Assembly: GCA_019359045.1 (NCBI GenBank)
Contig: JAHHIA010000013.1
Span: forward strand, 1 to 64,000
Reading direction: 5' to 3'
Length of the DNA stretch: 64,000 nucleotides
Origin: Scytolyngbya sp. HA4215-MV1
GTDB taxonomy: Bacteria; Cyanobacteriota; Cyanobacteriia; Leptolyngbyales; Leptolyngbyaceae
Shown here: positions 16,147 through 59,549 of the stretch, piece after piece
Position numbering within the stretch: position 1 is the stretch's first letter
Layout: every line of letters starts with the position of its first letter
Program-made: the position numbers and the translations under genes
The notes under the pieces: generated by a model
The model's database searches: none
Seen by the model: only the letters and a program-made list of their open reading frames with translations
Told to the model about the DNA's origin: nothing

Positions 16147-16539
16147 ATGACCCGTAAGATTATTCGGACAGAAACTGCTCCTGCCCCAGTGGGACCTTAC
16201 AATCAGGCGATCGCTGCTTCGGGCGAGTTCATTTTCGTGGCTGGACAAATTGCCCTGCACCCCAGTAGTGGACAAATTGTAGGAGAAGGCGATGTGACCC
16301 AGCAAACCGAACAAGTCCTGAACAATCTCAAGGCAATTCTAGAAGCCGCAGGGGTAACGCTGGCGGATGTGGTGAAGACCAGTGTGTTTCTCGCCAATAT
16401 GAACGATTTTGCTGCGATGAATGCCGTGTATGCTCAATATTTTGACGAAGCGATCGCCCCAGCGCGTGCCTGTGTGGAAGTATCTCGCTTGCCCAAAGAC
16501 GTGTTAGTGGAAATTGAATGTATTGCGGTGAAGTCTTGA
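16147..16539 (+). CDS. ridA: RidA family protein (YjgF/UK114)
   Basis: A 130-residue trimeric-type RidA protein. Landmarks are [10 protein letters not shown] at the N-terminus, [12 protein letters not shown], then [18 protein letters not shown], and the C-terminal active-site segment [23 protein letters not shown]. This segment contains the Arg that holds the carboxylate of the substrate in RidA enzymes. RidA hydrolyses reactive 2-aminoacrylate and related imines, sparing PLP enzymes. Size and motifs match the family fully. The histidine kinase frame begins 47 bases after its stop, so the two may share a transcript without an obvious functional link. Confidence 0.95.
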
Positions 16540-16586
16540 GAATCGCTGGGGTGAGTTTTGAACGTTTACCTGGTTCTAGCTTCACC

Positions 16587-18002
16587 ATGTTTCAAACAAC
16601 TCGTCGTCGGTTGGCTCTGTGGTACACCACAGTCACCGCAGTATTGTTGTTATTGTTTGCGAGTGGATTTTACCTCTATGTCCGCAGCACGTTAATTGAG
16701 CGGATTGACGATACGTTGAATCATGTGGTGGAGGTGGTGCAGCGATCGCTGGTGATTGAACCTGTCAATCCTCACACTGAGGGGGGACCGCTCCGTATCA
16801 ATGTCGAAGCGAGTTTTCGAGACAATGCCAGTACCGATGAAGATGACCATATTGACCTGGAGTGGTTTAGCCCAGACGGAGCCTTACTGTGGTCTACTTT
16901 TGCAGACTCGCTGAAGGTGCCACTGCACCCCAGTATTGATGGAGAAACGGTTGAAATTAATCGCACTGGAGAGAATGGGAATCTTTCTCCACCGACATTG
17001 CTGTTGCGCCAGGTGACCCACCGGGTGCAAATTGGGCAACAACTGATGGGTTATTTGCGGGTCAGCCACCCCTGGTTTGAGGTGACTAAACCCACTCGTC
17101 AATTGATAATTGATCTGAGTTTGTGGATTGGGGTGATTGTGGCATCGGTGGGTGCGATCGGCTGGTTTTTGTCGGGTTTGGCAATGGCACCTGTGCGCGA
17201 ATCTTACCAGCGGTTAAAGCAATTTACCGCTGATGCCTCGCATGAATTGCGTAGCCCGATCGCGGCAATCCAAACCAATGTACAGGTAGCACTTTCCGAT
17301 CCCAATCCCGATCCGGAAACGCAACAATATCACTTGCAGGTAGTGGAACGGCTCACCCGTCGCTTGGGTCGCTTGGTGGATGACTTACTGTTTCTGGCAC
17401 GGCAGGATAGCGGCATCGTGCAACCACAACGGGTCCCAGTTTCGCTGGATACGTTGCTGCAAGAGGTGGTTGAAGAGCAACGCGCGATCGCTGATGAGAA
17501 GGGGATTCAGCTATCGGTGAAGATCCAAGATGAACAGGATGGGGAGCAGGAGTTGGGAGTTGGAAGTCAGGAGTCAGAAGTTAGGAGTCAGGAGTCAGGA
17601 AGCAAACCAGCGAATCTTTTGACACTGTTTGCCGATCGTGACCAGATAGCGCGCCTTTTGATCAATTTAGTCAGTAATGCGATCCAGTACACGCCTATGG
17701 GGGGCAAGGTTGGCTTGCAGTTGGAACGGCTAGTGCGTACGAATACTTCTCAACTGCAAATCAAGGTTAGTGATACGGGAGTAGGTATTCCAGCAGACGC
17801 TCTACCTCAGATTTTCGATCGCTTCTATCGGGTTGATCCGGCGCGTGCCAGCACGAGTAAGGGGTCGGGCTTGGGTTTGGCAATCGCGCGGGCGATCGTG
17901 GAAAACCACCAAGGACAGATTCGCATTGAGAGCGCCGTAAATGAGGGGACGATCGTCACGGTGACCCTACCGCAAATCCGATTGGAAAGCGGGAAGGAAT
18001 AA
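16587..18002 (+). CDS. membrane sensor histidine kinase
   Basis: A 471-residue two-component kinase. A first membrane helix at ~10-32 and a second at ~175-200 flank a periplasmic sensor region. The HisKA domain has SHELRSPIAAI with phospho-accepting His219. The ATPase domain follows with the N box LVSNAIQYTP, G1 DTGVGIP and G2 GSGLGLAI. Overall layout resembles RppB/NrsS of Synechocystis, but no response regulator is adjacent, so it is an orphan. Between HisKA and the N box lies an inserted stretch of low complexity (ELGVGSQESEVRSQES), encoded by a 7-nt tandem repeat at 17549-17597. It probably forms a flexible loop. ATG at 16587 is preferred; a start at 16518 would overlap ridA by 22 bases. 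Confidence 0.9.
   Translation: MFQTTRRRLALWYTTVTAVLLLLFASGFYLYVRSTLIERIDDTLNHVVEVVQRSLVIEPVNPHTEGGPLRINVEASFRDNASTDEDDHIDLEWFSPDGALLWSTFADSLKVPLHPSIDGETVEINRTGENGNLSPPTLLLRQVTHRVQIGQQLMGYLRVSHPWFEVTKPTRQLIIDLSLWIGVIVASVGAIGWFLSGLAMAPVRESYQRLKQFTADASHELRSPIAAIQTNVQVALSDPNPDPETQQYHLQVVERLTRRLGRLVDDLLFLARQDSGIVQPQRVPVSLDTLLQEVVEEQRAIADEKGIQLSVKIQDEQDGEQELGVGSQESEVRSQESGSKPANLLTLFADRDQIARLLINLVSNAIQYTPMGGKVGLQLERLVRTNTSQLQIKVSDTGVGIPADALPQIFDRFYRVDPARASTSKGSGLGLAIARAIVENHQGQIRIESAVNEGTIVTVTLPQIRLESGKE
17549..17597 (+). repeat. heptanucleotide tandem array inside the histidine kinase gene
   Basis: Seven consecutive units fit GRAGTYR: GGAGTTG twice, GAAGTCA, GGAGTCA, GAAGTTA and GGAGTCA twice. The array is read through in frame. 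Its complement matches arrays in mutS (57193-57234) and in intergenic DNA at 60503-60537 and 33734-33754. Confidence 0.85.
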
Positions 18003-33754: not shown

Positions 33755-33903
33755 TCAGAATGGTTGCCCGACTTACGCCCCCAAGTACTAAGTAGGTAGC
33801 CCTAATTAATTGTAAGAAAGGGATTTAGAGGCTGTGCCCCTAGGCAGAGGGGGTTACCCCCTCCACCCCCAAAAACATCTTCAATTTAATTTAGCCCAGC
33901 TAC

Positions 33904-56468: not shown

Positions 56469-59303
56469 TTAAGTGCCAAAAATGTCAAGTTGTTCCATCG
56501 GCGATCGCTCAGCAGCAGAACGATATTTGCCATTTTTTTCTTGAACCCCTGGTTCTGATTTCCCCCCTTTGCGTAAGCCAACTGCAATCCGGGAATGCTT
56601 CTCAATTTGGCTCATGACTTGACGTGCCCGTTGAATCACCGGAGTCGGTAATCCGGCTAGGCGTCCAGCTTCAATACCATAGGAGCGATCGGCTCCACCG
56701 GGCTGAACTTTGTGCAAAAAGATGATTTGATCCGGCATTTCTTTTACCGTGACCTGGTAATTGGCGATGTTGGGCAAAAGCGATGCCAGTTCGTTCAGTT
56801 CGTGGTAATGGGTGGCAAAAATGGTGCGGGTGCGGATCTCGGTTGCCAAATGTTCTGCCACTGCCCAAGCGATCGACAACCCATCAAACGTCGCCGTGCC
56901 GCGACCAATTTCGTCCAGCAAAACCAGCGATCGTGGCGTGGCATGGTTCAAGATATTGGCAGTTTCGTTCATTTCTACCATAAAGGTAGATTGTCCTGTT
57001 GCCAGATCATCCACCGCCCCCACCCGGGTAAAGATGCGATCGCAAATGCCCAGGCGGGCAGTTCTGGCTGGTACAAACCCCCCCACCTGTGCCATCAGTT
57101 GAATCAACCCCACCTGGCGGAGATAGCAGCTTTTGCCACTGGCATTGGGACCCGTGAGAATAATTAAATCGGGAGGACAAGTTCTCCCAATCTCCCGACT
57201 CCTAACTCCCAACTCCCGACTCCTAACTCCCGACTCCTGTTTCTCCCATTCTGGACTCCCCAATTCCGTCGAGTTAGGCACAAAGAACCCTGCTGGCAGC
57301 GATTGCTCCACCACGGGATGGCGACCCTCAATAATGTGAATTTCGCGTCCTGTCCCCACGGTCGGACAACAATAGCCCTGGTAAACTGCCACCTCTGCCA
57401 ACGCACAAAGCACATCTAGAGCCGCGATCGCGCTGGCAACCTGGCGGATCAAATCTGCCTGCTCGGCAACTTTTTCTCGCAGCTCAGTGAAGAGCTCGTA
57501 TTCCAGTCGGTGCAGGGCTTCGCTGGCATTGAAGATGCGCGTTTCCCGATCTTTTAGATCGGGGGTAATGTAGCGTTCTTCATTGCTGAGGGTTTGCTTG
57601 CGAATGTATTCGGTAGGGGCTTGTTCCGCTTTGTTACGCGAGATGCTGATGTAGTAGCCAAAAGTCTTGTTGTAGCCCACTTTTAGGGTGGGAATGCCTG
57701 TGCGCTTGCGTTCAGTCGTTTCCAGTTCGGCGATCCATTGCTGGTCCGCTTCGACCTGTTGGCGCATTTGATCTAAGTGGGCATTTACCCCTGATCGAAT
57801 CAATCCGCCTTCGGTTAAGTAGAGGGGCGGGGTCTCTACCAGGTGGGCGTGCAGATAGGTGCCCAACCCTTCCAGTTCAGGGGGCGTAGTTTGCAGGGCA
57901 CAAAGATAAGGGGCATGACACCCTGCCACTAGTGTAGACAAATCAGGCAGCTTTTCCAGGGAATCTGCCAGGGCAACCAGATCACGGGCATTGGCAGTGC
58001 CTGATCCGGCGCGTCCGGTCAGACGTTCCAGGTCGTAGATTTGACGCAAGAGTCGTTGCAAATCTTGTCGCAGCGAACCGTGCTCGACCAGTTCTTGAAT
58101 AGTGGTTTGGCGGGCACGGATGGCAGCAATATCCAGTAAAGGTTGTAGCAACCAGCGTCGCATAGCACGCCCTCCCATCGAAGTCACTGTCTTGTCCAGC
58201 GCCCACAATAAAGAGCCATGAAACGTGCCATCGCGGCTAGTTTGGGTAATCTCCAGATTGCGGCGCGTCTGGTGATCCAGAGTCAGATATTCGGTCAGGG
58301 TATAGGTGCAGAGCGGCTGAAGCAAAATCCTTTGCAGAGAAGAGGTTTGAGGTTTGAGGTTTGAAGTTGGACTGACTTCTCCTGGCTCCTGGCTCCTGGC
58401 TCCTGGCTCCTGTTTCCCCCGCTCAGAAGTTGTTTCGATATATTCCAACAAGCCGCCTGCCGCCCGCACTGCCAGGGGCAGGTGCTCACATCCCATGCCT
58501 TCCAACGAGCGCACTCGAAACCGTTGCAACAAACGCTGACGCGCTTCGGTGGGAGCAAAGGGGGCTTGAGTTCGCAAGGTGTAGCAAAGCTGAGTTGGTA
58601 GACAGTCGGGAAGTTGATCCGATTTTTCGCCCGATCGCAACAACTGTGCAATATCAGGGGCATTGGTTGGCACCAGCACTTCAGCCGGTTGTAGCCGCAT
58701 CAACTCTTGCGTCAGTTGTGCCAGGTCGCTGGATTGAGTCGTGAGAAATTCTCCGGTAGAGATGTCGGCATACGCCAACCCCCAATGGTTGCCAGCCATC
58801 ACCACTGCTGCCAGAAAATTATTGCGCCGAGCATTGAGCATTCCCTCTTCCAGCACCGTGCCGGGGGTAATGATGCGAGTCACTTCTCGCTGTACCAGGC
58901 GCCCCTGCGCTTCCGAAGCATCTTCCATCTGGTCGCAAACGGCAACCGCATAGCCTTTTTCCACCAAAAGGGCACAGTAGCGATCGAGGGCATGATGGGG
59001 AATTCCTGCCAGCGGCACCCGTCCAATTTCCTTGCCCCCATCTTTGCTGGTCAGCACCAGTTCTAGTTCCCGCGCTACCGTAATGGCATCTTGAAAAAAT
59101 GTTTCAAAGAAATCTCCCACTCGGTAGAGCAACAGCGCATGAGGATACTGGTCTTTTAGCTCCGCATAATGGCGCATCATCGGGGTCAGCGCATCACGAT
59201 CCACCGATCGATGATCCGCATACCGCACCGCGTGCTTCATCAGTCGTTCTGGGAGACCCTCGATCGGGGCAAATTCGGCAGATGCATCGGGAGGAACAGT
59301 CAT
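56469..59303 (-). CDS. mutS: DNA mismatch repair protein MutS
   Basis: Recognises mismatches and starts repair together with MutL. About 944 residues, longer than the ~850-880 usual in the phylum. The N-terminal mismatch domain has [14 protein letters not shown], the Phe-x-Glu-containing motif that stacks on the mismatch. The ATPase domain has Walker [15 protein letters not shown], Walker [22 protein letters not shown] and ATHYHEL. Excess length comes partly from two low-complexity inserts made of 7-nt repeats: one at 58342-58410 between the connector and lever domains, one at 57193-57234 just before Walker A. Both are in frame. ATG at 59303 is preferred; a start at 59330 is possible. Confidence 0.95.
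57193..57234 (-). repeat. heptanucleotide array just before the MutS Walker A
   Basis: Six units of TCCYRAC (TCCCGAC, TCCTAAC, TCCCAAC, TCCCGAC, TCCTAAC, TCCCGAC). Read on the coding strand the array gives a peptide of the type [15 protein letters not shown], very similar to the insert in the histidine kinase at 16587-18002. Confidence 0.9.
58342..58410 (-). repeat. two heptanucleotide arrays in the MutS middle region
   Basis: Units of GAGGTTT three times plus GAAGTTG (58342-58369), then TGGCTCC four times (58383-58410). They encode the low-complexity peptide between [10 protein letters not shown] and the conserved LQRILLQPL of MutS, for example [11 protein letters not shown]. Confidence 0.9.
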
Positions 59304-59549
59304 GGGGAAAGCAGAGGGAGAGAGGGACACGGAGTTGCAGAGAGAGGAAGAAATGGCTTGATTTCTTGGGGTCGTATTTTCGTTGAGAGACCGTGGAACA
59401 GGATTTCTGTCCCAACCTGCTGCGATTTTATCGCTAGAGCCTGATCACGAGCCACAAGTTCAACGGGTAAAATCTTTTGGGAAATCCCCCAAAAGTTCCT
59501 CATTATCTCCCCTTATACTTTGACGTTCCCCACTGCCTGTTTCTCTCCT

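Follow-up and report, generated by a model that had tools for sequence, protein, structure and literature searches.

The heptanucleotide arrays inside the mutS gene of Scytolyngbya sp. HA4215-MV1 are very probably heptamers of the STRR (short tandemly repeated repetitive) type that entered two permissive loops of the protein and expanded there, as part of a genome-wide seeding of such arrays in and between genes. They are real and do not arise by chance; they are probably not an artefact, and they are not special to mutS. In our judgement, they represent a mutational liability common to many genes. The window, i.e. the whole stretch of DNA analysed, is 64,000 nucleotides long, and the features of mutS are listed in Table 1.

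The product of the gene is a MutS1, having domains I–V together with the conserved ATPase motifs. MutS_I, II, III, IV, and V were all matched in Pfam, and the protein scores above the cut-off of the NCBIfam MutS model. The Walker A motif corresponds to G727–S734, and its residues are invariant across the alignment. The genome (G000; 6.6 Mb, 33 contigs) contains a single full MutS1 match, and the two further matches are MutS2. The true start of the gene might be the ATG at 59303, ten codons in.

TRF detected three heptamer arrays at two sites of the mutS ORF, and the reading frame is open through all of them, as the first-pass annotation had described. Both sites given in that annotation are real, but the stretch 58342–58410 merged two different arrays, which have different units and are approximately 10 nt apart, and the array placed at 57193–57234 extends slightly wider (57184–57237). 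Written on the window strand, the CTCCTGG array of loop 1 has 4.9 copies with 100% matches and the GAGGTTT array has 3.9 copies with 95% matches, whereas the CTCCCAA-type array of loop 2 shows 78% matches at period 7 and 93% at period 21. All three have the tandem 7-nt unit of STRRs. The best lag-7 run in mutS, given by the pure array, was 27/27, and the maximum across 500 sequences drawn from a first-order Markov model of the gene was 18. This means that the heptamer periodicity is not due to chance, and chance periodicity was rejected.

Table 1. Position of mutS and its heptamer arrays in the window
Feature	Position	Strand	Description
mutS (MutS1)	56469..59330	minus	953 aa from GTG; domains I–V
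Loop 1, array 1 (coding-strand order)	58379..58412	minus	AGGAGCC x 4.9, pure; approximately residues 307–318, RSQEPGA heptapeptide
Loop 1, array 2 (coding-strand order)	58342..58368	minus	CAAACCT x 3.9; approximately residues 321–330
Loop 2 array	57184..57237	minus	RGGAGTY x 7.6, degenerate; approximately residues 699–716, ten residues ahead of Walker A

Escherichia coli MutS (7ai5_A) was aligned by HMMER on either side of both inserts. In this alignment, loop 1 has 45 residues here and 17 in E. coli, and loop 2 has 35 and 9, respectively. By the Pfam borders, loop 1 is located between MutS_II (end 304) and MutS_III (start 354). In the AlphaFold2 model (32 aligned sequences; mean pLDDT 76.5, pTM 0.72), pLDDT falls below 50 at residues 304–332 and 697–716, which are the two inserts. 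Values below 50 are also seen at residues 1–4, 6–36, 772–779, 843–865, 867–882, and 913–953. Both inserts are therefore predicted to be disordered, which agrees with the earlier proposal that the inserts before Walker A and in loop 1 form loops. From the predicted disorder and the E. coli alignment, a putative surface position is assigned to both.

The loops were then compared among relatives, for which 80 of at least 592 candidate genomes were sampled, so that near relatives may be missing. In the first sample, all 39 genomes, including G000, match the MutS query, G020 only at the MutS2 region and G032 only with a short piece. In the family, the MutS core was matched in 40 of 42 genomes, including G000, the exceptions being G020 (98% complete) and G042 (69% complete). 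The lack of a MutS1 core match in so complete a genome as G020 may mean that mutS has been lost or falls into a gap of the assembly. Loop 1 was extracted from 40 family genomes and loop 2 from 39, because G056 is cut off ahead of loop 2. With a lag-7 periodicity of 15 of 18 or more as the threshold, an array was found in loop 1 or loop 2 in 15 of 40 species and 9 of 19 genera of the family. By the same score, no array was found in the N-terminal part at residues 20–297 (0/39), the core at 344–687 (0/40), the ATPase part at 723–905 (0/39), or the tail at 906–953 (0/37).

The first-pass annotation had suggested such an alignment as a check on its reading, and the inserts proved not to be fixed: both the loop length and the repeat unit vary. 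Inserts of fixed length in the relatives are thus rejected. The units differ by genus (AAACTCA, ATCCAAA, CCACTCC, GGAGTCA, CCTCGAC, and others). In genus g7 (8 species), the loops are short and alike, and in genus g4 (7 species), they are long and every one is different. Repeats in loop 2 are also present in G026 and G035, outside the family. Loop 2 of G009 additionally carries a 20-nt palindrome, and in the G009 genome a 22-nt palindrome pattern has 49 forward matches (up to 2 mismatches; control 0). Small repeats of more than one type have landed in the two MutS loops.

The RGGAGYY unit in three tandem copies (up to 1 mismatch) has 145 matches in this genome, and the reversed pattern has none. 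The dispersal over the genome that is characteristic of STRRs was thus found for RGGAGYY. It was not found for the GAGGTTT/CAAACCT unit of loop 1, which is rare in this genome (7 matches; reversed control, 10). An abundant family is therefore not the source of every array. In the 42 genomes of the family, the number of RGGAGYY matches ranges from 0 to 501, with a reversed control that is not zero everywhere and reaches 83 in G005. The lengths of the two MutS loops follow this load, with rho values of 0.77 (n = 40) and 0.75 (n = 39), and of 0.70 and 0.77 on 19 genus means; because the genomes are related, p-values for such correlations are optimistic. The length of MutS2 also follows the load (rho 0.72; n = 36, leaving out three genomes that lack a match and three whose frame is split). 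For MalQ, the correlation is weak (rho 0.55; n = 36, leaving out six genomes whose match is partial or split), and its length spans only –3 to +6 residues. It should be mentioned that MutS2 ranges between 795 and 921 aa in the 36 family genomes and tracks the length of MutS loop 2 (rho 0.90, n = 34). In-frame heptamer arrays were observed in the MutS2 of three genomes (L190 in G000, L208 in G022, and L240 in G012).

Stretches around RGGAGYY arrays, 100 in total, were analysed for arrays inside other genes: this genome contributed 40, drawn from 100 listed of the 145 matches and not including mutS, G022 contributed 19, G012 27, and G009 14 of approximately 29 places. An array was regarded as in-gene when the open frame reached at least 50 aa on either side. 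On this definition, 57 of 105 arrays are in-gene (20/45 in this genome, 14/19 in G022, 16/27 in G012, and 7/14 in G009), and they are distributed over 56 ORFs. The first-pass annotation had considered STRRs within a core repair gene unusual; these counts from four genomes do not support the view that STRRs within genes are unusual here. Random positions in this genome and G022 lie in open frames in 29 of 40 cases (Fisher p = 0.06 against the arrays); genes are thus avoided mildly at most. The sense orientation is found in 56 of the 57 in-gene arrays. The unit GGAGTCA reads GVRSQES in all three frames, and its reverse holds TGA, which closes the frame. The sense bias is therefore partly caused by the definition itself.

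The carriers in this genome are MnmE, a hybrid histidine kinase, an ABC protein, a protein kinase with WD40 repeats, MenC, a hydantoinase-like protein, CrtD, MutM, a TPR-CHAT protein, nicotinate phosphoribosyltransferase, a molybdopterin oxidoreductase, DnaX, MutS2, a CocE/NonD hydrolase, and Mfd; among its 19 array ORFs, two were scanned without a family and two were left out of the scan. The carriers in the other three genomes include GyrA, RecJ, MutS2 (twice), RecN (twice), UvrA, PBP1C, and magnesium chelatase subunits; MutS2 of G012 was named by position, and L249 was left out of the scan. The stretches contain only part of Mfd, RecJ, and UvrA; the scores of Mfd and RecJ do not reach the curated NCBIfam cut-off, and the name UvrA comes from its Pfam domains. 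In mfd of this genome (L192), heptamer arrays are present at three places.

These observations suggest the following course of events. A genome-wide process would seed STRR arrays within genes and between them, the arrays presumably arriving by insertion and slippage. An in-gene array would persist only under three conditions: the length must change by a net multiple of three, the unit must be free of stop codons in the sense direction, and the loop must tolerate a disordered insert, such tolerance probably being near-neutral. MutS seems to offer all of this at two places, and as a result different genera filled both loops with different repeats. A slip of one unit would inactivate MutS, so that occasional mutators might appear as a by-product.

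Alternatively, the arrays might be a selected mutation-rate switch, in which slipped-strand mispairing reversibly shifts the mutS frame and produces transient mutators, as proposed for the 6-bp repeats of mutL. As the first-pass annotation had anticipated, changes in unit number shift the frame: in silico, gain or loss of one or two units truncates MutS to 342–366 aa (loop 1) or 711–769 aa (loop 2), and three units retain the frame. A frame shift on a one-unit change, as in a contingency locus, is thus predicted for the mutS arrays, and the mutL gene of Salmonella offers an experimental precedent (PMC2955026). With regard to the repeat tract, the first array of loop 1 is pure with 4.9 copies, but the loop 2 array is degenerate, with 78% matches. 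The latter contains two out-of-frame TAG triplets at a distance of 21 nt, as would be expected under selection for the frame. Furthermore, neither the units nor their positions are conserved from genus to genus, dozens of unrelated genes carry an equal liability, and the split mutS genes of relatives break outside the arrays. In G005, the frameshift is in the Walker A region just past loop 2 and not in the array, so that this genome was rejected as a natural off state; the frameshift may be a sequencing error. The other split genes break near residue 143 (G010), residue 772 (G008), and residues 354 and 800 (G030, outside the family). The DNA identity of the mutS core between species of one genus is 74–87%, and the species are therefore too distant for single slips to be watched. 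The data lend no support to a selected switch, which we regard as very unlikely.

The switch might also be a distributed and unspecific one rather than a single one. According to this idea, heptamers in STRR-rich cyanobacteria favour genome-maintenance genes (MutS, MutS2, MutM, Mfd, DnaX, RecN, RecJ, UvrA, and GyrA), and random 7-nt slips would provide a standing supply of reversible repair-defective cells. Repair, replication, and topology genes account for 11 of the 56 array ORFs, MutS not counted, and 0 of the 29 random ORFs (Fisher p = 0.013), in an uneven comparison in which random ORFs were named at 1e-60 in NCBIfam (21/29 unnamed) and the array ORFs of this genome at 1e-5, with functional classes picked after the names were seen. 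The 11 are MutM, DnaX, MutS2 three times, Mfd, GyrA, RecJ, RecN twice, and UvrA. When orthologues are collapsed by name, 8 of approximately 52 array ORFs belong to genome maintenance (p = 0.046). Strong family matches are more frequent among array ORFs (22/30) than among random ORFs (8/29; p = 0.0007), and this alone would raise the genome-maintenance share. The heptamer of Nostoc sp. PCC 7120 is reported to be spread randomly over functional classes (PMC4692102). The excess is considered to be a post-hoc lead, and the distributed switch built on it seems very improbable.

It is very unlikely that the inserts are adaptive, in the sense of contributing a useful surface, for instance a segment for binding or regulation. 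The two loops are extended across many genera and the insert peptides are mostly hydrophilic, but sequence, length, and unit differ between genera and even inside genus g4, genus g7 does with short loops, and the inserts are predicted to be disordered.

A reason at the level of nucleic acids appears highly improbable as well. Here, a G-rich first half and a C-rich second half would pair in mRNA or single-stranded DNA, and the resulting hairpin would drive insertion or regulate expression. Among the 31 MutS loops of at least 75 nt, which are related by descent, the second half has the lower GC skew in 29, and the first half is purine-richer in 30. Around the arrays of this genome, GC skew likewise decreases from upstream to downstream in 16 of 20 in-gene cases and 14 of 20 others, so that the G-rich-to-C-rich order is not confined to the loops. 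Six of the 31 loops fold at z < –2, one of them at –5.96. However, the other 25 fold no better than z = –2, and the loops of this genome have positive z values of 1.42 and 1.18, i.e. they fold worse than shuffled sequences. An RNA hairpin as a general loop feature is therefore rejected. The conserved G-rich-to-C-rich order itself is not accounted for by simple tolerance.

An assembly or sequencing error is extremely unlikely: short repeats are error-prone, but the frame is retained through three arrays, and nine genera show comparable loops in genomes assembled independently, among them G013 (single contig) and G005 (3 contigs).

STRR heptamers have reportedly been described in cyanobacterial RNase P RNA (Vioque, in 1997). 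Cyanobacterial heptamers also occupy the P6b stem of the trnL intron, where the repeat class was replaced repeatedly in different lineages (PMC4476775). The mutS arrays resemble both systems in that 7-nt repeats colonise an element of a functional gene that is tolerant and variable in length. Unlike the repeats there, which build paired stems, those of mutS are translated and must keep the frame. The GGGGA(C/T)T heptamers of Nostoc sp. PCC 7120 are dispersed, as seen here, with 68% intergenic and the rest partly intragenic, but recurrent protein loops are not described in the accessible text (PMC4692102). The Salmonella mutL switch is similar in that tandem repeats lie within a mismatch-repair gene and their copy number affects function; its 6-bp units keep the frame, whereas a one-unit change in the mutS heptamers would not. 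The survey of mutL and mutS in the same source screened motifs of 1–6 nt only, so that heptamers fall outside it (PMC2955026). The TAACTGA heptamers of Beggiatoaceae also form dispersed arrays, and 25 ORFs contain or overlap them; however, they are mainly intergenic and upstream of start codons, and the unit has a forward stop (PMC4679880). Among the top-ranked open-licence PMC papers, no title or abstract opening dealt with heptamers inside cyanobacterial MutS.

Cyanobacterial heptamers are thus more than spacer elements: repair and housekeeping proteins have them within their reading frames, and in MutS the same two loops are occupied again and again across genera. At every in-gene array, a single slip would inactivate the gene. 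Should changes in unit number be frequent, mutators would often arise in these bacteria.

Some further repeats were observed beside these arrays. A histidine kinase gene (RppB-like; window 16518–18002, plus strand) holds a GGAGTCA-type array at approximately 17543–17604 inside its open frame. At a uvrA-like ORF of G009 (G009:C336:13618-13773, L256), the dispersed palindrome AGACGCGATTAATCGCGTCT is located approximately 110–130 nt from a GGAGTCA-type array. A dispersed element starting with TAGTACTTTGGRGYRTAAGTTRGGCAACC has 17 matches in G000 (up to 2 mismatches; control 0), one of them in the window at 33762–33790 on the minus strand. The copies at L162, L172, L179, L180, and L194 contain a short heptamer array in the middle of the element, which may be a small mobile element carrying STRR units.
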